Positions 2,860 through 23,897 of a stretch of DNA of 31,053 bases are shown one piece after another. Origin of the DNA: a virus; IMG/VR virus record IMGVR_UViG_3300003314_000005, positions 1 through 31,053 of that record, one strand, 5' to 3'. A model generated the notes under the pieces. The model had not been told where the DNA came from, ran no database searches, and saw nothing but the letters and a program-made list of their open reading frames with translations. Each line of letters begins with the position of its first letter. Within the stretch, counting starts at the first letter, position 1. The translations under genes were made by a program, and so were the position numbers.

Positions 2860-3972
2860 ATGACCCCGAATCCCATCTCCGAAAAGAACGCACGCGCGCT
2901 CGAACACTTCCCACCACTCCACCGCGAAGACTATCGCGGCTTCAAGCAAGACTTCATGGAGTGGATGCTGGAGAAAGGAAAGAACCCCGTCAAGCACGAC
3001 GGATACTCCGAAAACACCCTCCGGCAAACCCACTACAAGCTGGAGGAAGTTTTCCGCTACCTCTGGAACGCGAAAGGAGAGTACACTACCGAAATTCCAC
3101 CGGAAGACGCCGACGAATTCCTCAACTCAATCCTCGGTCGCCAGAAGGACAAGGCAGTCATGGACTTCGTGAAATCAATCAAGCGATTCCACAAGTACCA
3201 GAACCACACGAAGGAGAAGCACTACGATTGGGACTACGAGAACAAGGACGAGCTGTCCGTCAGCGCGAACAGCAAGACGGTTGACTACTTCAAGCGCGAG
3301 GAGATGCACGCCCTCTATGAAGCGAGCCTCAGCAAAGGCTCCGTCAAGAGTTACCACAACAAGAAAATGACCGACGATGAGCGGGACCGGATTAAGATCC
3401 ACCTCGCTCAGCGATTTGAGAAGCAAAAGTCAGAGGTCACACCCGAGGACTTCTCCCGAGCAAATTCTTGGAAGTTCCCCTCGATTGTCTCGACGTGTAT
3501 CGACATTGGGCTTCGACCCATTGAGGTGGGGAAGGCGAAGGTAAGCTGGGTCAATACCAACGCCAACGAAATTATCATACCCGCGCGCGAGGCGACGAAG
3601 AATGACTCTCCGTGGGAGTGTAAGATCTCGAACAAGACCGCGCGCGCCTTAGATACCTGGCTGGATGAGCGAGCGACGTATGAAAAATACCAAGACAGCG
3701 ATAACCTGTGGCTCACCAAACACGGCAACCCCTATGGGAGTAACTCCCTTAACGGCCTGCTCGACCGTCTGATGGAGGAGACAGACATTCGTCCCCACGG
3801 TCGGAAGCTAACGTGGTACTCCATTCGACGTGGCTGCGCGACGATGTGGGCGAATGATGGTGGGATCGAAGAGGCCCAAGAACAACTCCGCCACTTGGAG
3901 CTGAAGACGACTCTCACATACACCAGTTCTCCCGGGAAGACTCGGGAGAATCGAGCGAACGACCTCTGGTGA
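2860..3972 (+). CDS. int: Tyrosine recombinase / integrase
   Basis: 370 aa, the usual length for haloarchaeal integrases. The N-terminal SAM-like core-binding domain is about residues 20-125. The catalytic domain shows Arg219 (GLRPIEV), Lys247 (EATKND), YSIRR with Arg323 in the HxxR box (His replaced by Tyr320), His345 (LRHLE) and the nucleophile Tyr354 (TLTYTSS). It should catalyse site-specific integration and excision at the tRNA-Gly site about 110 bp upstream. The ATG at 2860 follows a GGGTCACTCACA leader. It is the only plus gene in this region and converges on the GIY-YIG gene across a shared hairpin. Confidence 0.93.
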   Translation: MTPNPISEKNARALEHFPPLHREDYRGFKQDFMEWMLEKGKNPVKHDGYSENTLRQTHYKLEEVFRYLWNAKGEYTTEIPPEDADEFLNSILGRQKDKAVMDFVKSIKRFHKYQNHTKEKHYDWDYENKDELSVSANSKTVDYFKREEMHALYEASLSKGSVKSYHNKKMTDDERDRIKIHLAQRFEKQKSEVTPEDFSRANSWKFPSIVSTCIDIGLRPIEVGKAKVSWVNTNANEIIIPAREATKNDSPWECKISNKTARALDTWLDERATYEKYQDSDNLWLTKHGNPYGSNSLNGLLDRLMEETDIRPHGRKLTWYSIRRGCATMWANDGGIEEAQEQLRHLELKTTLTYTSSPGKTRENRANDLW

Positions 3973-4467: not shown

Positions 4468-4590
4468 TCACGGGGACGACCAGAATTCATCACCGCACTC
4501 AGAACAGCGATACTTCGCATTAGTACCGCCAGCGATCAAAACTCGATATTTCGAATAATGCTTCTCATTTCCACAACCCGGACACTCCAT
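4468..4590 (-). CDS. Zinc-ribbon microprotein (40 aa)
   Basis: MECPGCGNEKHY...YRCSECGDEFW: two CxxC knuckles about 25 residues apart, the minimal zinc ribbon. Its ATG overlaps the RtcB stop (TGATG), indicating translational coupling. Adjacent to RtcB, so it may bind RNA or act as an accessory factor; that is inference only. Confidence 0.75.
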   Translation of the reverse strand: MECPGCGNEKHYSKYRVLIAGGTNAKYRCSECGDEFWSSP

Positions 4591-5957
4591 CATGCTTTGA
4601 AGTTGACCTTCGGAACAAGCCGATCCATGATCTCGGCTGTGGGCTTGATCTGCTCCTCGATGAGAGACGTTTCCTTATACGCTTCCGGAACCTCGTCAGT
4701 CGGGACATTCGTGGAGTACGTCCCGTTCGCGTACATCCGCTGCCGAACCTCGTCAGAATCGAACTGGTCGTGTGCCCATCCACGGGAACCGAGTCGGCCA
4801 GCTCCATGAGGTGCGGAGTTATTCCACTCGTCATTCCCCTTGCCACGACAGACAAGCGTCCCATCTTCCATGTTCATCGGAACGACGAACTGCTCATTCT
4901 TCCCAGCTCGCGTCGAACCCTTCCGAATGACGCCATCAGCGAAGTCCACGTAGTTGTGGGGTGAGTTAATCATGTGATAGATCTCCGCATTGAGGTGGGT
5001 CGCCACTTCCTCTGCCATCAGATACCGACTCGTAGAGGCGTACTGCTGGGCAAACACCATATCCTTCAGGTAATCGAACATCTCGTCACCTTCCAGATAA
5101 TCCAACTTGGTATTCCGGTTCGGGTCCGGACTGAATTCATCAATCCGATCCCCCATCTCACCAATGGCTTCACCGTCGAAGTCCTCTTTAATACGCTCCC
5201 AGAACGGAGATCCATCGGACATGGTGTACTCCTTCAGCTCCTCATCCATCTCCCAGCGAAGAACCCGAGAGCGGTGGAACGTCGCGTCGTCTTGATGGAA
5301 TCCAGCAACCTTCTGACCGAGATTCCGACTACCGGAGTGAACGACGACCCAGATCGAGCCATCGTTCTCAGACTCAGCCACCTCAATGAAGTGATTCCCA
5401 CCGCCGAGACTGCCGAGGGAATCCTTCGCATACTTCTCTGAGATGCCGACCTTCTCACACAGCTCTTCGAAATACTCAACGTCGAACTTCTCGTCTTCGT
5501 ACTCTCGATCCCCCAGAACCTTCTCGGGAAGGTAATCGAACATCATCTTAAGGGTGATGTTCGCATGAGGGATGGGGTAGAGGTCCTCGAAGTCTTCTTC
5601 AGAACGATCATTCACCCGCCCCATCCCCATCGGAACGCTCTGACGTACCTTTTCATTGAGTGGGCGAAGGTCGTCAATATCATCGAGGTTAACCTCCACG
5701 TCGTTGAGCTTCGCCGCTGTCATTCCACACCCAATGTCCCCACCGACCGAGTTCGGGATGATACGGTTCCCAAGCTGCATCGAGAAGCCAACGATTGCGT
5801 GGGGACCAAGCCCGCCGTGAACGTCCGGCATGTACTTGATCGGATTCTGGAACGCTCGATTGTCCACCTGTTCCTGAATCTCCTCGCCCAGCCCTTCCTC
5901 GATGTGTTCCTCTGGAAGCTTTACGTCAGCCGTCGTGTGTTCTCCTTCGACAATCAT
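4590..5957 (-). CDS. rtcB: RNA-splicing ligase RtcB (3'-phosphate/5'-OH RNA ligase)
   Basis: 455 aa, near the family norm. RtcB joins 2',3'-cyclic-phosphate and 5'-OH RNA ends, the chemistry of archaeal tRNA exon joining and of tRNA repair. Family residues visible: MPDVHGGLG (43-51), Asp74 and Cys77 in GGDIGCGM (Mn ligands), GGGNHF with Asn188/His189, HSGSR at 207, SPHNY with His334, KGSTRAG at 346, and His384 in SAPHGAGR, the residue guanylylated by GTP. No intein. Its ATG overlaps the stop of the upstream 171-aa gene (ATGA). No archease-like gene is adjacent. The window also encodes interrupted tRNAs, which makes splicing or repair of viral tRNAs a natural role. Confidence 0.96.
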   Translation of the reverse strand: MIVEGEHTTADVKLPEEHIEEGLGEEIQEQVDNRAFQNPIKYMPDVHGGLGPHAIVGFSMQLGNRIIPNSVGGDIGCGMTAAKLNDVEVNLDDIDDLRPLNEKVRQSVPMGMGRVNDRSEEDFEDLYPIPHANITLKMMFDYLPEKVLGDREYEDEKFDVEYFEELCEKVGISEKYAKDSLGSLGGGNHFIEVAESENDGSIWVVVHSGSRNLGQKVAGFHQDDATFHRSRVLRWEMDEELKEYTMSDGSPFWERIKEDFDGEAIGEMGDRIDEFSPDPNRNTKLDYLEGDEMFDYLKDMVFAQQYASTSRYLMAEEVATHLNAEIYHMINSPHNYVDFADGVIRKGSTRAGKNEQFVVPMNMEDGTLVCRGKGNDEWNNSAPHGAGRLGSRGWAHDQFDSDEVRQRMYANGTYSTNVPTDEVPEAYKETSLIEEQIKPTAEIMDRLVPKVNFKA

Positions 5958-6469
5958 AGTTCAACTTCACCCATCTTCAGAACATCATGCGCTGCGTACC
6001 TCGTCCGATTCTCCAGAAAGTTCCCGGTCGAGAAATCCGTGTCCGTGACCTGCGTAGTGAGCTTGGAAACTGGGTCGTGGATGGTCGTCCGGTCCATCCC
6101 ACCACCAAACTTCATCTCCTCAGAATCAACCTCAAGCCGATCTCGAATATCCTCAACAGCAGGCTTCTCGGCCTTGGTCCGGAGATCGAAGAGACGGTGT
6201 TCAAGCGTTTTCTCAATTCCGTACTCAGGCTCCTCGACGGGATTATCATCGAGGTAGTCAATGAGGTACTCCGCCGCCCGAAATGCCTTGACGTGTTCGC
6301 TGTCTTCCTCAGGGAACATCTCCAGAAGATCTTCTGCAACCTCCTTCGCAGTTCCCCGATATGCTGGATTGACTCTTGAATCACTCACTCCAACAAGATG
6401 GAACTCTGCTGAACCATACTTCGCCATACCCTCCAACGTCTCTCGTAGAATTTCTATTTGAGAATTCAT
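5954..6469 (-). CDS. Hypothetical protein upstream of RtcB (171 aa)
   Basis: First gene of the RtcB operon, overlapping rtcB by four bases (ATGA). Charged, largely helical protein; the middle (AEDLLEMFPEEDSEHVKAFRAAEYLIDYL) is helix-rich and the C-terminal part is more strand-like. Not archease by inspection: the archease signature is absent. Strict coupling to RtcB suggests a functional partner, but no domain is recognised. Confidence 0.75.
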   Translation of the reverse strand: MNSQIEILRETLEGMAKYGSAEFHLVGVSDSRVNPAYRGTAKEVAEDLLEMFPEEDSEHVKAFRAAEYLIDYLDDNPVEEPEYGIEKTLEHRLFDLRTKAEKPAVEDIRDRLEVDSEEMKFGGGMDRTTIHDPVSKLTTQVTDTDFSTGNFLENRTRYAAHDVLKMGEVEL

Positions 6470-6553
6470 CTCTACCTTTCTCTCTAATGTAACACTACAT
6501 TGAGTGAGTTAGAACACAACCACCTCAATGCAGTTTTACTTTGTACTAAAACA

Positions 6554-6598
6554 CTACAGTACAGCACAGCACAACTACAGCACAGCAGTACATTGTAC
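6554..6598. repeat. CAGTACAG/CACAG short direct-repeat array (copy 1)
   Basis: CTACAGTACAGCACAGC then ACTACAGCACAGCAGTAC: degenerate 5-8 bp units built on CAG and TACAG, ending in ATTGTACGC. It lies in the leader between promoter element copy 1 and the 171-aa gene. A related array occurs at 26751-26814, likewise beside a copy of the element. Confidence 0.6.
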
Positions 6599-6618
6599 GC
6601 GACCCTGACTGCCTCTGA

Positions 6619-6672
6619 CTGCCTCTACCGTATAGACGGCGGCTAAGGACTTAAAGATACCGGAATAAGTCT
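6619..6672 (-). promoter_or_regulatory. Intergenic promoter/operator element, copy 1
   Basis: On the plus strand: CTGCCTCTACCGTATAGACG, about 10 bp, then GGACTTAAAGATACCGG and AATAAGTC. Read on the minus strand it offers a TATA-like CTATACGGTAG for the RtcB operon, with the CTTAAAGATACCG block as an upstream partial dyad (GACTTA...TAAGTC). A preceding partial duplicate CTGACTGCCTCTGACTGCC is present. Four other copies share this core. Confidence 0.6.
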
Positions 6673-6689
6673 TTAACAGTTAACACCCA

Positions 6690-6791
6690 CTACTGGTGTC
6701 GAGTTAGAATCGGCTTCACTTCGCTTATCAGATACAACACACCCACGTAAAAGAAGATATATACAGCAAGCAGAATGTCGAATAGTATCAC
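6690..6791 (-). CDS. Single-span membrane microprotein (33 aa)
   Basis: GTG start at 6791, 6 bp past the dCTP deaminase stop. Reads MILFDILLAVYIFFYVGV then LYLISEVKPILTRHQ: one hydrophobic helix with a short basic tail. Last gene of the thyX-dcd operon, ending next to promoter element copy 1. A similar GTG-started membrane microprotein ends the operon at 22699. Function unknown. Confidence 0.5.
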   Translation of the reverse strand: MILFDILLAVYIFFYVGVLYLISEVKPILTRHQ

Positions 6792-6797
6792 GCGCAG

Positions 6798-7358
6798 CTA
6801 CTCGAAGTCTTCGTGAAGGCGACTCGGTGTCGTCCCCTCCTGTTCGTCGTACTTGTTCCCGTTATATTTCGAGTAGCCCACGTCCGGTGCGGTCTTCACT
6901 TCATGGAAGGTGATCTGACCGATTCGCATCCCCTCTTGTAGGCGGATGTGGTTCCGAGAAGCGTTGAACAGCTCCAGCGTAATCTCACCAGAGAAACCTG
7001 GGTCGATCAGGCCGGCGTTCTCGATGAACATTCCAAGTCTGCCGACCGACGAGCGACCGTGTAGATAGCCCACTATGCCGTTTGGGATGTTGACCGTCTC
7101 CTCGGTCGTCCCGAGGACAAAACTCCGTGAGCCAATCGTGTAGCCGCCCTCCATCTCCCGCTCGTAGTAGCCGGGGTAGGTCGACTCATCAGTCACGTCA
7201 ATCACCCCTCCAACCTTCTCCTCAATGAGCAATTCCTCTCCGAGGTGAACGTCGACGGAAGCTGGCTCCACGTCCACTTCATCATCCCCACCTTCAACCA
7301 GCGGGGTATCATCATAGACGACGCTACGGCGAATGTCTTCTCTCCCAAGAACACTCAT
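6798..7358 (-). CDS. dcd: dCTP deaminase (possibly bifunctional with dUTPase)
   Basis: 186 aa, typical of the trimeric Dcd/Dut fold. Converts dCTP to dUTP, feeding dTMP synthesis by ThyX in the same operon. Motifs: GRSSVGRLGM (101-110, phosphate-binding Arg/Ser), NAGLIDPGFSGEITLEL (114-130) with the catalytic Glu in TLEL, and the C-terminal lid QEGTTPSRL (173-181). Some archaeal homologues also hydrolyse dUTP; the sequence alone does not decide. Start overlaps the upstream lipoprotein stop by four bases. Confidence 0.93.
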   Translation of the reverse strand: MSVLGREDIRRSVVYDDTPLVEGGDDEVDVEPASVDVHLGEELLIEEKVGGVIDVTDESTYPGYYEREMEGGYTIGSRSFVLGTTEETVNIPNGIVGYLHGRSSVGRLGMFIENAGLIDPGFSGEITLELFNASRNHIRLQEGMRIGQITFHEVKTAPDVGYSKYNGNKYDEQEGTTPSRLHEDFE

Positions 7359-7609
7359 CGGAGGTTCGTCTCCGAGATTGGTACTGCTGTTACTCCAGAA
7401 CCGTTACCCTCTACAGATTGGTAGATAACAACACCAGCCTCACGGTCGATGAATCGCGTAACACTTGGGCCGGACAGTCCATCTTCCTTCAGTCGTTCAA
7501 CGTCAGTAAGTTCACTCATTATATCTTCCTCATCTGCATCCGAAACGCACCCCGAAGCAACAGTCAAGAACGATGCACCAAGCGCGGTTAGAAACGTTCG
7601 CCGATTCAT
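7355..7609 (-). CDS. Predicted Tat-exported lipoprotein (84 aa)
   Basis: The N-terminus MNRRTFLTALGASF plus LTVASGC has the twin arginines (Arg3-Arg4), a hydrophobic stretch and a lipobox Cys at 21, the haloarchaeal pattern for Tat lipoproteins. The mature part is about 63 aa, acidic, of unknown fold. It lies between the two-span membrane protein and dcd in the thyX operon. A small surface lipoprotein in an early viral operon could alter the host envelope, for example by superinfection exclusion; this is speculation from analogy with phage lipoproteins. Confidence 0.75.
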   Translation of the reverse strand: MNRRTFLTALGASFLTVASGCVSDADEEDIMSELTDVERLKEDGLSGPSVTRFIDREAGVVIYQSVEGNGSGVTAVPISETNLR

Positions 7610-7809
7610 TCCATGTACTCCTTGTAGCCTTGGTGAAGAACGTCAACTGAGTATCCCAACCCGAAGATCAGAGCAACGACTACAACGATCAGGAGGAGAA
7701 ATGTACGACCAGTTTTGGTCCCGACGAGTGGGAGGAGTATGACAATTGCTACGAAAGCCAAAACTCCCATAAAGAACCGCTTCCCCCACACATCTCCATC
7801 AATGTCCAT
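7606..7809 (-). CDS. Two-span membrane protein (67 aa)
   Basis: Two hydrophobic segments, GVLAFVAIVILLPLVG (about 15-30) and FLLLIVVVVALIFGLG (about 37-52), separated by a short KTGR loop. Precedes the lipoprotein with a four-base overlap, so the pair may act together at the membrane. Size and topology resemble small holins, but an early-operon location argues for another role. Confidence 0.7.
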   Translation of the reverse strand: MDIDGDVWGKRFFMGVLAFVAIVILLPLVGTKTGRTFLLLIVVVVALIFGLGYSVDVLHQGYKEYME

Positions 7810-8012
7810 CAGTCAGTCACCCGTCCGTACTTCACAGCCTGTCGATAATCTCGGGCTGGCGTCTTCGTCTCGTCAGTCTCCGGGTCCCATTGCTTCGTAA
7901 CCCCAGTCATCGAGTATTCCAAATTGGGGAACTTCTCCTCGACCTCGCTGTCGGAAATCCAGTAGTCGTCCTGTTCATCCAGCCATTCGAGGAATTCTTC
8001 TTCGTTAGTCAT
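7809..8012 (-). CDS. Acidic hypothetical protein (67 aa)
   Basis: Starts MTNEEEFLEWLDEQDDYWIS; strongly acidic first half, C-terminal DYRQAVKYGRV. No domain recognised. Start lies within the end of the 39-aa zinc protein and its stop shares one base with the next start, so it belongs to the thyX operon. Confidence 0.7.
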   Translation of the reverse strand: MTNEEEFLEWLDEQDDYWISDSEVEEKFPNLEYSMTGVTKQWDPETDETKTPARDYRQAVKYGRVTD

Positions 8013-8124
8013 ACTTGTAGGAAACTACGGGACAGTCACCTGTGCAGGTGTATTGATTCGGCGCGAGACTTGATGAAGCAGCTCCAGGATCGGAGCCACA
8101 GCAAGGACACTCAACTTCACTCAT
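8005..8124 (-). CDS. Zinc-finger microprotein (39 aa)
   Basis: MSEVECPCCGSDPG...YTCTGDCPVVSY: CPCC knuckle and CX3C knuckle about 20 residues apart. Overlaps both neighbours by eight bases, typical of this operon. Probably a structural zinc site; partner unknown. Confidence 0.65.
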   Translation of the reverse strand: MSEVECPCCGSDPGAASSSLAPNQYTCTGDCPVVSYKYD

Positions 8125-8395
8125 CGAAGATTCTCACAACGTCCCTCATCGGCCCGCTGATGTTCAGACCACTCTCCATTGTGAAGCGGAATTCGTGTGG
8201 ATCTGCTCCGAATCCTTGGGTGAAGCTCAAACTCCGAATTGTCTGCGTCTTCCCTCCAACGTCCACTTCGTCGCCAGCAGAATAGCCATAGACGACTCGC
8301 TGGGGGTACTCATCATCCTCATTCTCCTCCGGAGTATCATCCTCAATGGACTCTACATTGAGGGAGAGGGTGAGCTGAATCTCTTTCTCAGTCAT
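8117..8395 (-). CDS. Hypothetical protein (92 aa)
   Basis: ATG at 8395 chosen because it overlaps the upstream stop as ATGA; an in-frame ATG four codons earlier is also possible. Reads MTEKEIQLTLSLNVESIED..., an acidic centre, then a strand-rich C-terminal half (GDEVDVGGKTQTIRSLSF, FRFTMESGLNI) compatible with a small beta domain. No family recognised. Confidence 0.65.
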   Translation of the reverse strand: MTEKEIQLTLSLNVESIEDDTPEENEDDEYPQRVVYGYSAGDEVDVGGKTQTIRSLSFTQGFGADPHEFRFTMESGLNISGPMRDVVRIFDE

Positions 8396-8517
8396 ACCAA
8401 ATCCCACTCTTCAAGATATTCTTCGAGAAGCTGTCGGTCCCCTCCATCATCAGCCGTATGAAGCGGAACCATATCCCCAGTCGCGTTCACCAAGTAGAGT
8501 CCTTCTGAGTGCTTCAT
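8392..8517 (-). CDS. Microprotein (41 aa)
   Basis: MKHSEGLYLVNATGDMVPLH... ending EEYLEEWDLV. Overlaps the thyX stop (ATGA) and the next start (ATGA), so it sits precisely in the operon frame pattern. Acidic helical tail; function unknown. Confidence 0.6.
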   Translation of the reverse strand: MKHSEGLYLVNATGDMVPLHTADDGGDRQLLEEYLEEWDLV

Positions 8518-9176
8518 GGCGCTCGCAGGCTGTTGTTGTTGATGTATTCACCATACCCCTCGAACGTCAGCGGTGCCCAGTCCTCACACTCGTCGAGAAC
8601 CTGAGAGGCGAATTCACGAGCCTCCCATTGAGCCTTCATGTTGTGGCGGAGGTCGAAGAAGTGCATCAGACTCCGGGGGTTCGCCGAGAAGGTCAGGTTG
8701 ACAGGCGTAGCCTGTGGGAGGAAGAAGCGGGCGTCCTCTTTCTCGATTCCGTCGTCAATTGCCCAACGATAGAGGTCAACTGAATCTTCCCAATGAGCTT
8801 CCAAAGCGTCAGCCCAATCGGTGTTCACTTCTTCATCTTCAAGCGACGGCGGAACCACCGGCTCTTTATCGCTGAACTCCACGTACCGCTGGCTCTGAAC
8901 GTCAAATGACATATGACGGTGCCTCGTTACCTGGGCCATCGCAACCCGAGAAATCCCCTCAACGTGGAAGTATGCCTTTGGATGCTCGAACGGGCCGAAG
9001 TGACCACTCCGAAGCAGGCCGCCGATCAGCTCCTCTCGCGTCTTCTCCGTACTCTCCATCGCCTCCTCGATGGTAGAGCCAACGAGGGAATCCGACATAT
9101 AATCTCCACGCGCCGCGAGAATTACAGAATTATCCGGCTCAGTTGTACTTTTGTCTTCTTTGAGTTCGACTTTCAT
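8514..9176 (-). CDS. thyX: Flavin-dependent thymidylate synthase ThyX
   Basis: 220 aa. Methylates dUMP to dTMP using methylene-tetrahydrofolate, FAD and NADPH. The signature RHRX7S is exact: Arg85-His-Arg87 to Ser95 in RHRHMSFDVQSQRY. SGHFGPFEH (57-65) and HFFDLRHN-type residues near 170 also match the family. First protein gene of an operon that also holds dcd, giving a dCTP to dUMP to dTMP route. A tRNA gene lies between its start and the promoter element, so the mRNA leader is released by tRNA processing. Confidence 0.95.
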   Translation of the reverse strand: MKVELKEDKSTTEPDNSVILAARGDYMSDSLVGSTIEEAMESTEKTREELIGGLLRSGHFGPFEHPKAYFHVEGISRVAMAQVTRHRHMSFDVQSQRYVEFSDKEPVVPPSLEDEEVNTDWADALEAHWEDSVDLYRWAIDDGIEKEDARFFLPQATPVNLTFSANPRSLMHFFDLRHNMKAQWEAREFASQVLDECEDWAPLTFEGYGEYINNNSLRAP

Positions 9177-9824: not shown

Positions 9825-12416
9825 TTAGAAGGCCGCAAGCCCCGTCTGCTCCTGCCCTGAGATCGCTGCGTCAACGTCAACACCAACGGCATCCAGAATG
9901 TCCTCCATCGGGTTCCGAATGAGAGTATCCTGCATACGGGGAACGTCGACGCTAAGGTCGCCGCCGAAGTCTTCAAGCTGGGCACCTCGTTCATACCCAA
10001 TTACGTCCATCTCGTAGTTCCGGCCATTGTGAGACATGTTCGTCCCAGTTAGGTAGAGACGCTTGACCGTATCACCCTCTCCGAAGTTGACCTTCGGGAC
10101 GAACAGATTCCCGTAGTGAGCTGCTCGGGGAGAGGCTCCAGCGGGAGTCCCATCCGACCATCGGTACTCACTCAACTCCTGCCCAAGCCCGCCGGGAATT
10201 CCGATGAGGTCGAAGTCGGGGTCGGCTGGGTCAATGCTCTTAGCCCCTTCACGGATGATGGAGCGAATCTCGTCGGTGTCGCCACCTCGGACGATTTCTT
10301 CAAGAACATCTCGCTGTACCTGCGAGGTTAGAGCCGCCGTGTTTGCCTTTTTACAGGGATACCCGGAGATGCTCATTTTCCCTTTGCCGTCCTTGATCTC
10401 CTCATCGAAGGGCATTCCCTCATCCCAGACCTTCGTGTAGGCGTAGAACTTCTTCTGACCGGACATGAAGAAGTCGGACGCATACATCTCGATTTCTATC
10501 TCGAACCGAGTCGGCCAATCGCTATCCTCAACGTCGGTGTTCATCCCAAGACCGCGAGCGACGGCTGGGTAAATTGACTCATTGAGGTCGGTACAGATTA
10601 CCTCTGCCTGATTTAGACACTCCTCCTGACTCCAATCACTCGGGAACTCGATGTAGTTTGAGTCTGTGTCACCGTATGCCACGTTTGCCTGCGTCTCCTC
10701 GTTGACGTACTTGGAGGTGGACTTGATAATCTCCTGCGAGGTGAGCGTGATTGCAGAAGCAATGTCCTTGTCGTAGAGGAAGAAGCGAATCCACCCAAGC
10801 ACTCCGTAGATCGAGTTAACTATCGTCTTCCTGACAGCATACTCTTCAGCCCACTCAGCCCGCTCCTCGGGAGTGAGGGACTGATCTTCCTTCATCACGC
10901 CAGCGTGCTGCTTGAGGGCGAGGGCGTCGTCCACAAGCTGTCGGAAGATGCCGTCTTCTTCGAGGCAGAAGACTACGCCGTTCGAGGATACCGACACCTC
11001 GTACCCTTCGGCACGGATCTTCTCCACCCACTCTTCTTTGAAATCCCGCCCAATCTTCCCCAACTTCGTCTCGGGGGATGCATTGAGCATCCAGAGTGCG
11101 TTCGGGTAGAGCGAAGCGAGGTCGATTCCGACGATGTTCTGCTTCAGCCCGTTGAACGCCTCAAAGACAAACGCTCCGTCGTAGCTGCCCGGGTCGTCCG
11201 GCTCCTCAGCAGTTGGCCCCGCGTAGCCTTGTTTTCGAAGCTCCCGCCGGACCATCATGGTGATGAAGTCCTTGTTATCCTGCGTGTCCTCGTAGTCCAG
11301 CCCAATGGTGTTCCGGAGGGCTGTCTTGAACCCGAGAACGTTCGCAGCCTCATTAATTTCGTTCGTCAGCCGAACGTCCTTGGTGTTGTAGTTGAGGAAC
11401 TTCTTCGTGTTCGCCTCATACAGCTCGTAGAAGCCCATCTCCTGATGGTCAATCTTCGCGTCGTCCAACTCCATTGAGGCGGCTTCATCGAGGGAACCAG
11501 ACACCTTGGTGAACTTCGTGTCCTTCCACCCCTCCATGAAGTCGAACGTCGAGCGACCGTTGATGTAGGCTTCATCCTTCCACGTCAGACCAGTTCCTCC
11601 ACCACGTCCCATTCGGCCAGAGTTGGCTCCAACCTCCCCACCACGTTCAACAACAAACGGAGTGTCGAACCCGTTGCTGTTCCACCCAGCGATAACGTCG
11701 AAGTCTTTCTCGCTGACGTAGGAATAGAACTGGAGAAGCATCCGTCGCTCATCCGGCTCGAAGTTGAGCTGATCGAGATGATCGAGGCCGAGGTCACTTG
11801 GATGCTCAATAGCGCCGGGAGCCACCTCTGCGGCTTGGAACCGCTCTCCAAGCGCATCGTTCTCCATGTCGATGAAGCCTACATATTCATCGGTGTAGGA
11901 GTCGTGAGCTGCGATAGAGAGAATACGAGCTTCACCGTAATCGGGGAACCCCTCGCCCCGGTCGTCCGTCTCAATGTCGAACGTCAAGACTCGCGGCGGT
12001 TCATCCATCTCAATGGGCTGAACCTCACCAACGTCGACGCGATCACCAGGAACGCGAACGCCGGTCTTCACGTCGTAGTCAATCCGGAAGCGATTTTCCG
12101 GATCTACGTCGGCTTCGAAGTGCTGGTCGAACACATCAGCCACGTCATTCATCTGGTACGGATTGTTGACGATGACCTTCGTGAGTGGTTTCTGCTCTTT
12201 TAGATCTCGGAAGTCGCTTTCCTCAAATCGGTCGATGTTCTCGTGATCGAACGAGTTGAATTCCTCAGCCGCTTCGGGACGGACGTAGAAGTAGGGTTCA
12301 AACCCTTCAACGACGACGTGTTCCTTCCCGTGCGTCTCATTTCGACCGTATAGGTGAATCTCTACGTCGCCGTTGTTCATCGAACATTCTGTGTTCGTAA
12401 TGTAGATTTCTTTCAT
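9825..12416 (-). CDS. polB: Family B DNA polymerase with proofreading domain
   Basis: 863 aa. Replicative polymerase. Exonuclease motifs: ExoI Asp147-x-Glu149 (FDIETD), ExoII WNSNGFD (246-251), ExoIII YNTKD (343-347). Polymerase motifs: A with DLASLYP (432-438), B with KTIVNSIYG (530-538), C with YGDTDS (581-586). All catalytic residues are present. The C-terminus QTGLAAF fits a PCNA-interacting (PIP) box QxxLxxF, implying use of a sliding clamp. No intein interrupts the motifs. The ATG overlaps the stop of the 38-aa zinc protein. Primase and AAA+ ATPase lie a few kb upstream on the same strand. Confidence 0.97.
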   Translation of the reverse strand: MKEIYITNTECSMNNGDVEIHLYGRNETHGKEHVVVEGFEPYFYVRPEAAEEFNSFDHENIDRFEESDFRDLKEQKPLTKVIVNNPYQMNDVADVFDQHFEADVDPENRFRIDYDVKTGVRVPGDRVDVGEVQPIEMDEPPRVLTFDIETDDRGEGFPDYGEARILSIAAHDSYTDEYVGFIDMENDALGERFQAAEVAPGAIEHPSDLGLDHLDQLNFEPDERRMLLQFYSYVSEKDFDVIAGWNSNGFDTPFVVERGGEVGANSGRMGRGGGTGLTWKDEAYINGRSTFDFMEGWKDTKFTKVSGSLDEAASMELDDAKIDHQEMGFYELYEANTKKFLNYNTKDVRLTNEINEAANVLGFKTALRNTIGLDYEDTQDNKDFITMMVRRELRKQGYAGPTAEEPDDPGSYDGAFVFEAFNGLKQNIVGIDLASLYPNALWMLNASPETKLGKIGRDFKEEWVEKIRAEGYEVSVSSNGVVFCLEEDGIFRQLVDDALALKQHAGVMKEDQSLTPEERAEWAEEYAVRKTIVNSIYGVLGWIRFFLYDKDIASAITLTSQEIIKSTSKYVNEETQANVAYGDTDSNYIEFPSDWSQEECLNQAEVICTDLNESIYPAVARGLGMNTDVEDSDWPTRFEIEIEMYASDFFMSGQKKFYAYTKVWDEGMPFDEEIKDGKGKMSISGYPCKKANTAALTSQVQRDVLEEIVRGGDTDEIRSIIREGAKSIDPADPDFDLIGIPGGLGQELSEYRWSDGTPAGASPRAAHYGNLFVPKVNFGEGDTVKRLYLTGTNMSHNGRNYEMDVIGYERGAQLEDFGGDLSVDVPRMQDTLIRNPMEDILDAVGVDVDAAISGQEQTGLAAF

Positions 12417-12529
12417 TGATTCTCTCGATCTTTTCGTCGCATCATCGAATCCCGCTGTGCCTCAAAGCAAATTCCACACAGCCTCTTCCCACTCAATGCG
12501 TCTCTCATCTCACAATTTTCACATTCCAT
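12413..12529 (-). CDS. Zinc-finger microprotein (38 aa)
   Basis: MECENCEMRDALSGKRLCGICFEAQ then a basic tail RRKDRENQ. Two CxxC knuckles 12 residues apart, a treble-clef/zinc-finger size, plus positive charge suited to nucleic-acid contact. Overlaps the DpdA-like gene and polB, so it is co-translated with polymerase. Confidence 0.7.
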   Translation of the reverse strand: MECENCEMRDALSGKRLCGICFEAQRDSMMRRKDRENQ

Positions 12530-13382
12530 TTTTCAATTCTCGATGAGTCAGCGTATCTTCCCGGTAGAAGTATTCTCGTCCGGGGAAGGGCTTCTCGTCG
12601 TTTGGACCAAGTACAAGCTGCTCACGACTCCGGGGGCGAGCTTTCCGTTCCTCGGGTAAGGGACAGGGATCTGGCTGTTGTACCTCTAACTTGCAGAGGT
12701 TAATCCGATCTTCATCCACCTCTCCATTCCATTTCTTGACAAGATTTCCCATCGACCGCTCAATCCGGTCGTAGTAATTGTATCCCTCTTCACCCCACCC
12801 ATCATTCCAAACACTCCCGAACTGGGCAGCTTTGAGTGGGGAAGCCGTGTCTACTGATTTGACATTCACGTAGTGGCTCAGTTCATTTTGGCGAGCGGGA
12901 CTTCCTCCGAGAATGTGGACTGAACCACAGCTTCGATAATCCCACACCGGCCACGGGACGCCACCAAAGCGGTCCTGAGCTGGGAGTCCGACGCGGAAGC
13001 GGCTTGGAATACGATTGGGCTTGACGCCCTTCGGAACCACAATGACAGTCTCGGCATGTTCGTCCAGTTGATCAGCCTGAGAAATGACTGAATCAAATTC
13101 ATCAGGCGATTGAATATCAGGAGCAACAGCATAGCTTGGATTGTGACGTTTGACTACATTGAGGTGGGCTTGGAAGTCGAAGTCGTCTTCAAGAAACGGC
13201 CAGTCAACGAATTCGACCGGAATATCGTCCGGCGGTTCAACCGAACTATTCACTCCCACCAGCGCCCCACCTCGATGGGCTGCTCGTGGCATATCTTCGC
13301 CGCCCGAACTGGTGACTATAACATCAATTTCTGTACTCCGAGTGTTGGTACTGGTCGTCGGTTGGTGCTTGGCTAAACTCAT
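12519..13382 (-). CDS. DpdA-like (DUF6610-type) transglycosylase, probable DNA 7-deazaguanine insertion
   Basis: 287 aa. The pattern resembles tRNA-guanine-transglycosylase-fold DpdA proteins of phages: VAPDIQS with Asp89, VIVVPKGV, RVGLPAQDRFGG (130-141), then CGSVHILGGSP (152-162) with SVDTASPLKAAQFGSVW (177-192). The last two blocks correspond to the barrel-end strands of TGT-type enzymes, where the HLLGG-like loop and SxD motif recur. Known DpdA enzymes exchange guanine for preQ0-type bases in DNA and protect against restriction; halovirus HVTV-1 DNA is reported to contain such a base. No preQ0 biosynthesis gene is visible in this window. Alternatives are a tRNA-directed TGT relative. Coupled to the 38-aa zinc protein and polB. 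Confidence 0.6.
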   Translation of the reverse strand: MSLAKHQPTTSTNTRSTEIDVIVTSSGGEDMPRAAHRGGALVGVNSSVEPPDDIPVEFVDWPFLEDDFDFQAHLNVVKRHNPSYAVAPDIQSPDEFDSVISQADQLDEHAETVIVVPKGVKPNRIPSRFRVGLPAQDRFGGVPWPVWDYRSCGSVHILGGSPARQNELSHYVNVKSVDTASPLKAAQFGSVWNDGWGEEGYNYYDRIERSMGNLVKKWNGEVDEDRINLCKLEVQQPDPCPLPEERKARPRSREQLVLGPNDEKPFPGREYFYREDTLTHRELKNGM

Positions 13383-13396
13383 TGAAGGAGTGGCCG

Positions 13397-13567
13397 CTAC
13401 AGCTTGTCGGCGTGCTGGGAGTAGATCGTATTCCGAATCACTTCCGCCCGATTCGCCTTATCGTGATTCCGAACCACTCTCTGTATCTGAGCGTATTCAG
13501 TCAGAAAGGCCGCGAGATCATCGAGCGTGTCTCCGTGCAGCGTCAGACCGAGATTTTGTTCTTCCAT
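13397..13567 (-). CDS. Hypothetical protein (56 aa)
   Basis: MEEQNLGLTLHGDTLDDLAAF then a helical, charged C-terminus with RAEVIRNTIYSQ. Shares TAATG with the upstream 59-aa gene. No domain recognised; may be a small helix-bundle regulator. Confidence 0.6.
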   Translation of the reverse strand: MEEQNLGLTLHGDTLDDLAAFLTEYAQIQRVVRNHDKANRAEVIRNTIYSQHADKL

Positions 13568-22375: not shown

Positions 22376-22549
22376 TGGGCGGGTGATTTTCTATTATTGA
22401 CCGCGACCCTCAGCGCGGTCTTCCCAATTTCTGACCATGTTCCTTCCCCATTTCCAAATGAGGTCGGCGTCCCGTCCTTGAGCAACGTCCGGTTGCAGTT
22501 GAGTCTCTTTGAGCGTCCAAGCTCTCAAGTTCCGGATGCGAGCCGGAAG
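22376..22549 (-). ncRNA. Structured spacer between tRNA-Asn and tRNA-Tyr, possible ncRNA
   Basis: 174 nt without an open frame of quality. On the minus strand there are three hairpins in order: TTCCGG-CTCGCAT-CCGGAA, GCAAC-CGGAC-GTTGC and GACCGCG-CTGAGGGT-CGCGGTC, the last followed by AATAATAGAAAATC. Flanked by two tRNAs, its ends would be released by tRNA processing. No T-arm signature, so not an ordinary third tRNA. Nature unknown. Confidence 0.4.
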
Positions 22550-22622
22550 CGCCGAAGCGAGGGATCGAACCTCGAACCACCACGTTAACAGCGTGGCACT
22601 CTACCAATTGAGTTACCTCGGC
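22550..22622 (-). tRNA. tRNA-Asn(GUU)
   Basis: Acceptor GCCGAGG/CTTCGGC, T8-A9, D arm ACTC...GAGT, anticodon arm CCACG-CTGTTAA-CGTGG (anticodon GTT), T arm CGAGG-TTCGATC-CCTCG, discriminator G. Fully canonical. First RNA gene behind element copy 3, whose TATA-like box is about 34 bp upstream. Confidence 0.93.
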
Positions 22623-23720: not shown

Positions 23721-23724
23721 AAAA

Positions 23725-23795
23725 TGGGGAGGAGAGGAATCGAACCTCTATCCCGACCACCCAAGGGTCGAATGTTCCCATTGCACCACCTCCCC
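23725..23795 (-). tRNA. tRNA-Pro(UGG)
   Basis: Acceptor GGGGAGG/CCTCCCC, D arm GTGCAATGGGAACAT, anticodon arm CGACC-CTTGGGT-GGTCG (anticodon TGG), T arm AGAGG-TTCGATT-CCTCT, discriminator A. Canonical and intronless, four bases upstream of the intron-bearing tRNA. Confidence 0.9.
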
Positions 23796-23897
23796 AATGC
23801 CGTATTTCTTTAGACGCCCGGTTCCGGTCCTTTCACCCGGCGGCGTCCTCACATGACCTGTATAATTATTCCAAGGCCTCTCGGTCAAGGAGACATG

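Follow-up and report, generated by a model that had tools for sequence, protein, structure and literature searches.

A DUF6610 gene upstream of the DNA polymerase gene of a halovirus encodes a candidate DNA-guanine transglycosylase

Does a short gene beside the DNA polymerase gene of a salt-lake virus encode an enzyme that inserts 7-deazaguanine into viral DNA? This question is raised by an IMG/VR virus record of 31,053 bases (hereafter the window), whose relatives are Haloferacalesvirus (Hafunaviridae) genomes such as HRTV-5, HF2 and VOLN27B, and which is a fragment of an HF2/HRTV-5-like halovirus of the Hafunaviridae, a virus of archaea. The gene is an open reading frame (ORF) encoding 287 amino acids (aa) at 12519..13382 on the minus strand. 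An initial annotation had taken its product for a DpdA-like transglycosylase because of three blocks of the type found in tRNA-guanine transglycosylase (TGT), and all three were located in this ORF: RVGLPAQDRFGG (residues 130-141), HILGGSP (156-162) and SVDTASPLKAA (176-186). The reading that we favour, and hold to be fairly probable, is that the gene product is a short and divergent DNA-guanine transglycosylase with no recognised zinc site, which would be fed by the host and protect a subset of sites.

The ORF matched Pfam DUF6610 (PF20314) with an E-value of 3.4e-54 and 184 bits (cut-off 27) over domain positions 1-198 of 198, so that the profile search proposed in the initial annotation returned a full-domain match; it also matched phrog_16059, a family of unknown function. 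Orthologues were present in 41 HF1/HF2-group records of the phage collection at 63-65% identity and 99% of the length, and HSTV-2, from another genus of the Hafunaviridae, was absent from the DUF6610 matches in that collection. With these matches and a dN/dS of about 0.08-0.16 between close relatives, the gene is real and under purifying selection. PADLOC and NCBIfam searches gave no useful match. The Pfam TGT profile (PF01702) had 0 matches in the window and 13 other records and matched 14 of 14 control genomes; this profile also misses a known phage DpdA, gp3 of Mycobacterium phage Knocker.

As expected of a DpdA in the wide sense, the family occurs in 7-deazaguanine gene clusters of HVTV-1, HCTV-1, HCTV-5 and Knocker. 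HVTV-1 gp69 is a DUF6610 protein (2.7e-56) encoded directly after folE in a cluster with queE, queD, queC and queF, and in HCTV-1 and HCTV-5 the DUF6610 gene likewise directly follows folE in a preQ0/QueF cluster. About 30% of G in HVTV-1 DNA is present as dPreQ1, yet no DpdA was recognised in this virus in 2019, and a host DpdA was therefore proposed (PMC6884629). Searching HVTV-1 with Pfam TGT and with phrog_887, the phage DpdA family profile that does recover Knocker gp3, yielded no other candidate inserting enzyme. Since gp69 sits in the preQ cluster of a dPreQ1-containing genome that was reported without a DpdA, DUF6610 is probably a divergent DNA-guanine transglycosylase. In Knocker, a preQ0 cluster opens with gp1 (extracted locus 1-1317), a ParB-DUF6610 fusion (1.6e-31), and gp2 of that cluster is a QueF annotated as GTP cyclohydrolase. 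HVTV-1 gp69 and the other DUF6610 proteins of the Druskaviridae (HVTV-1, HCTV-1, HCTV-5) share with the window protein the Pfam family, the invariant residues and the setting in archaeal tailed viruses. They are distant homologues, however, with 26-30% identity and a longer N-terminus, and they are encoded within a preQ0/preQ1 pathway that is complete and carried by the virus itself; the virus group of the window has no such pathway. Cui et al. 2023 (NAR) reportedly defined DpdA3 and DpdA4, of which DpdA4 is said to be specific to archaeal viruses, and HVTV-1 gp69 and the Druskaviridae DUF6610 proteins may well correspond to DpdA4; if gp69 is DpdA4, then DUF6610 is already known in substance.

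The residues conserved in the family also recall those of phage DpdA. An alignment of DpdA1 proteins (CAjan, Dp-1, phi3:1, NP1, Laurie, Me-ZS1 and Knocker) has D63, D105, P129, H187, G190 and D206 as invariant positions, and in DUF6610 D60, D89, P117, H156, G159 and D178 follow in the same order. Across 61 family members, D60, D89, P117, G132, H156, L158, G159, Q165 and D178 are invariant. The putative nucleophile D178, which aligns with DpdA Asp206, lies in V177-D178-T179 (codons at 12846..12854, minus strand). The best local alignment with CAjan DpdA was an ungapped block of 22 residues at D178, in which SVDTASPLKAAQFGSVWNDGWG of the window protein pairs with SCDSSSWIQAAAFGSVVTPPWG of CAjan DpdA at 11 of 22 identical residues (50%); when this block was subjected to a shuffle test, its identity was equalled in 0 of 500 trials and its score in 1 of 500. 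Deletion of CAjan DpdA abolishes DNA modification (PMC6884629). Besides the motif order and the nucleophile block, the DpdA1 type (CAjan gp35, phage 9g) has in common with the window gene a location near replication genes, but CAjan encodes its own preQ0 pathway.

An AlphaFold model of the window protein built with 30 relatives is a TIM barrel (mean pLDDT 72.6, barrel core mostly >80), in which D60 and D178 fall at the C-terminal ends of strands and D89 three residues beyond such an end. The HVTV-1 DUF6610 domain was also modelled as a TIM barrel, at low confidence (mean pLDDT 65), so that the fold whose absence the initial annotation had named as contrary evidence was predicted in two models. 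With VIA-align, the window model matched Z. mobilis TGT, a bacterial enzyme, at Z 12.2 and 3.4 Å over 205 residues, and in a viral structure library the matches at E <0.001 included phage queuine tRNA-ribosyltransferases (about 7e-4). The likeness to Z. mobilis TGT is one of fold, whereas there is no sequence match, identity is about 9%, and no zinc-binding subdomain was recognised. DUF6610 profiles had 0 TGT matches among the sequences of solved structures, a result that is uninformative because the DpdA1 profile misses TGT too. The N-terminal TSSGG was considered as a counterpart of the TGT motif TDSGG and rejected, as this stretch is unconserved in the DUF6610 family whereas D60 is conserved.

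The DUF6610 gene is embedded in a compact series of minus-strand genes. Directly upstream lies a gene for a 56-aa conserved virus protein (13397..13567; phrog_34115, 1.5e-24), and downstream follow a 38-aa CxxC protein of zinc-finger type (12413..12529) and a family-B DNA polymerase, polB (9825..12416; Pfam DNA_pol_B 3.8e-21 and DNA_pol_B_exo1 1.1e-15; phrog_262 4e-151). The tight linkage with polB that had been pointed out is borne out by consecutive overlaps: the microprotein gene begins 11 bp before the DUF6610 gene ends, and polB begins 4 bp before the microprotein gene ends, so that start and stop codon overlap (ATGA). The proposed zinc microprotein is likewise a real CxxC ORF: 10 of 11 related viral loci have it as the next gene after DUF6610, with spacings from an 11 bp overlap to 107 bp. 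The Haloferacalesvirus orthologues of the gp58 type (HRTV-5 gp58 and HF2 NP_542551; 63-66% identity), annotated as hypothetical, are likewise followed by a CxxC microprotein and polB, but in both viruses an extra 157-aa gene intervenes before polB, and HF2 has a second CxxC gene; the direct microprotein-polB overlap is peculiar to the window. The DpdA genes of CAjan, NP1, Me-ZS1 and Dp-1 are also beside or near polymerase or clamp genes, and on a Natronosalvus halobius plasmid (extracted locus 5995-7544) DUF6610 overlaps a PCNA-like gene, whose Pfam match is weak (0.0034). Because these four phage loci and the plasmid show similar neighbours, linkage to replication genes appears recurrent, and it would be consistent with modification around replication.

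The family extends well beyond viruses: of 292 sampled Halobacteria genomes, 97 have DUF6610, and a tblastn search with HVTV-1 gp69 hit 90 plasmid records. On genome contigs a mixed viral profile gave 0 matches and a plasmid-type DUF6610 profile recovered the loci. All of these haloarchaeal loci stem from a single profile and share 62-100% identity with the query, and so do not sample the family at random. Of the 70 haloarchaeal loci whose flanks were long enough, 69 have an ArdC-like antirestriction gene (PF08401 above cut-off) downstream of DUF6610 on the same strand, and a 115-aa gene often separates the two (e.g. extracted locus 5896-8362). The plasmid proteins have the same Pfam domain and invariant residues as the window protein, but carry in the same chain a C-terminal CxxC...CxxC zinc-type region (residues about 270-320) that is missing in the viral forms, and they are followed by the 115-aa protein and the ArdC-like gene. 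The viral forms are instead followed by the separate CxxC microprotein. That this microprotein descends from the zinc-type C-terminus of the plasmid proteins is a guess, and stays one because the cysteine spacing differs (C-x2-C-x11-C-x2-C versus a longer gap). We also give some, though limited, credence to the idea that DUF6610 is a transferable anti-restriction module with which plasmids (together with ArdC) and HF1/HF2-group viruses (together with the microprotein and the polymerase) mark their own DNA using host preQ0.

Several results weigh against the window gene encoding a host-fed DNA-guanine transglycosylase, and they are considered here with the alternatives on which they bear. The alternative that survives best, which we regard as possible though not favoured, is that the gene product, though a genuine DpdA homologue, modifies few sites or depends on a partner, with virion DNA essentially unmodified and the role of the gene minor or regulatory. 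A 2020 comparison of HF1-like viruses described total loss of GATC, CTAG and many 6-mer palindromes (PMC7230728), as would be the case for restriction-sensitive DNA. Our observed/expected ratios for 6-mer palindromes were 0.07 in HRTV-5, 0.19 in HSTV-2 (which has no DUF6610 match), 0.32 in the window and 0.39 in the modified HVTV-1, so that avoidance is stronger in HF1-group genomes than in a genome known to contain dPreQ1. Because avoidance is strongest in HRTV-5, DUF6610 does not relieve restriction pressure there, and the site counts suggest that any restriction protection from DUF6610 would be limited in the window virus too. HVTV-1, however, both avoids these palindromes, with 0 GATC sites, and is rich in dPreQ1; avoidance and modification can therefore coexist, and avoidance thus weakens but does not refute modification. 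GATC was also at 0 in the counted stretches of HRTV-5, HCTV-1 and HSTV-2, whereas the window retains 154 GATC sites versus 198 expected; CTAG is absent from it versus 46 expected.

The supply of precursor bears on the same alternative. Profile searches for queC, queD, queF and TGT found none in the window, in line with the initial annotation, which had seen no preQ0 pathway gene, and none in eight complete relatives; HVTV-1, HCTV-1 and Knocker, as positive controls, matched queC, queD and queF. The annotation of HRTV-5 lists no preQ0 gene. Of two phages with DpdA alone that others have examined, Orion is unmodified and 7-11 has 0.02% of G modified (PMC6884629). In the account of Liu et al. 2021 the preQ0 pathway is attributed to the Druskaviridae and a case of DpdA alone to HRTV-29, and HF1-group viruses are not named in those passages (PMC8651126). 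On the other side stand the strong purifying selection and the full conservation of the Asp residues. Moreover, QueC matches were obtained in 6 of 6 haloarchaeal genomes (5 with E <1e-69), as the earlier proposal that haloarchaeal hosts make preQ0 predicted, whereas the host of Orion is without a preQ0 pathway; supply of the precursor by the host is therefore possible.

The second alternative, which we judge unlikely, is that DUF6610 is a TIM-barrel enzyme functionally unrelated to transglycosylases, such as a nucleotide or sugar enzyme, and owes its place in preQ0 clusters to chance or to an accessory role. For the window model, PdxJ ties with TGT (Z 12.6 over 177 residues), and the best 50 matches of the HVTV-1 model were general TIM barrels with TGT not among them, so that the fold alone is not decisive and, given also the low confidence of the HVTV-1 model, was not taken as proof of kinship with TGT. 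In hhalign comparisons DUF6610 had no significant profile relation to DpdA1 (P 0.03-0.13, probability 0.5-1.8%); the claim that the protein is DpdA-like is supported by the predicted barrel, the motif order and the CAjan block. Many family members adjoin ArdC on haloarchaeal plasmids and not preQ0 genes, and Knocker has a classical DpdA, gp3, in its cluster besides DUF6610, because of which DUF6610 need not be the inserting enzyme of that phage. An unrelated enzyme would nevertheless leave several observations unaccounted for: two unrelated virus groups keep DUF6610 in preQ0 clusters, HVTV-1 needs an inserting enzyme and offers no other candidate in the Pfam TGT and phrog_887 searches, the local match to CAjan DpdA falls on the nucleophile motif, and the ArdC neighbourhood itself points to DNA protection.

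That the gene encodes a TGT that modifies tRNA and not DNA is very improbable: haloarchaea use preQ0 for tRNA archaeosine, and the window has minus-strand genes for tRNA-Asn(gtt) (22549-22622) and tRNA-Pro(tgg) (23724-23796) and an RtcB-like RNA ligase (4590-5957, between an integrase at 2860-3972 and thyX at 8514-9176), but neither the window nor its relatives match Pfam TGT, Pfam finds no additional domain such as PUA in the window protein, and the relatives of DUF6610 are in clusters of DNA-modifying viruses or on plasmids with ArdC.

If the gene does encode a host-fed DNA-guanine transglycosylase, D178 would attack C1' of deoxyguanosine in viral DNA and guanine would leave, after which a 7-deazaguanine base would be inserted, with D60 assisting and D89 recognising the base. 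The inserted base would be preQ0 from the host archaeosine pathway, a source proposed because no virus gene for preQ0 was found. Transcription together with polB and the CxxC gene would mean that the enzyme is made at the time of replication, and the modification would shield a subset of sites, not the whole genome, from host nucleases.

HF1 and HF2 are among the oldest haloarchaeal model viruses, and the DUF6610 gene is still called hypothetical there. If it encodes a DNA-guanine transglycosylase, these viruses would divert a host precursor of tRNA modification into DNA, a dependence that is directly testable since Haloferax volcanii can be deprived of preQ0 synthesis. For HVTV-1, in which the inserting enzyme was reported in 2019 to be lacking, DUF6610 is also a concrete candidate, and it draws attention to a large haloarchaeal plasmid family adjoining an antirestriction gene. 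Should the notion of a transferable anti-restriction module prove true, about a third of haloarchaeal genomes would encode enzymes of a DNA base modification that has gone unrecorded, one that would run without a dedicated pathway.

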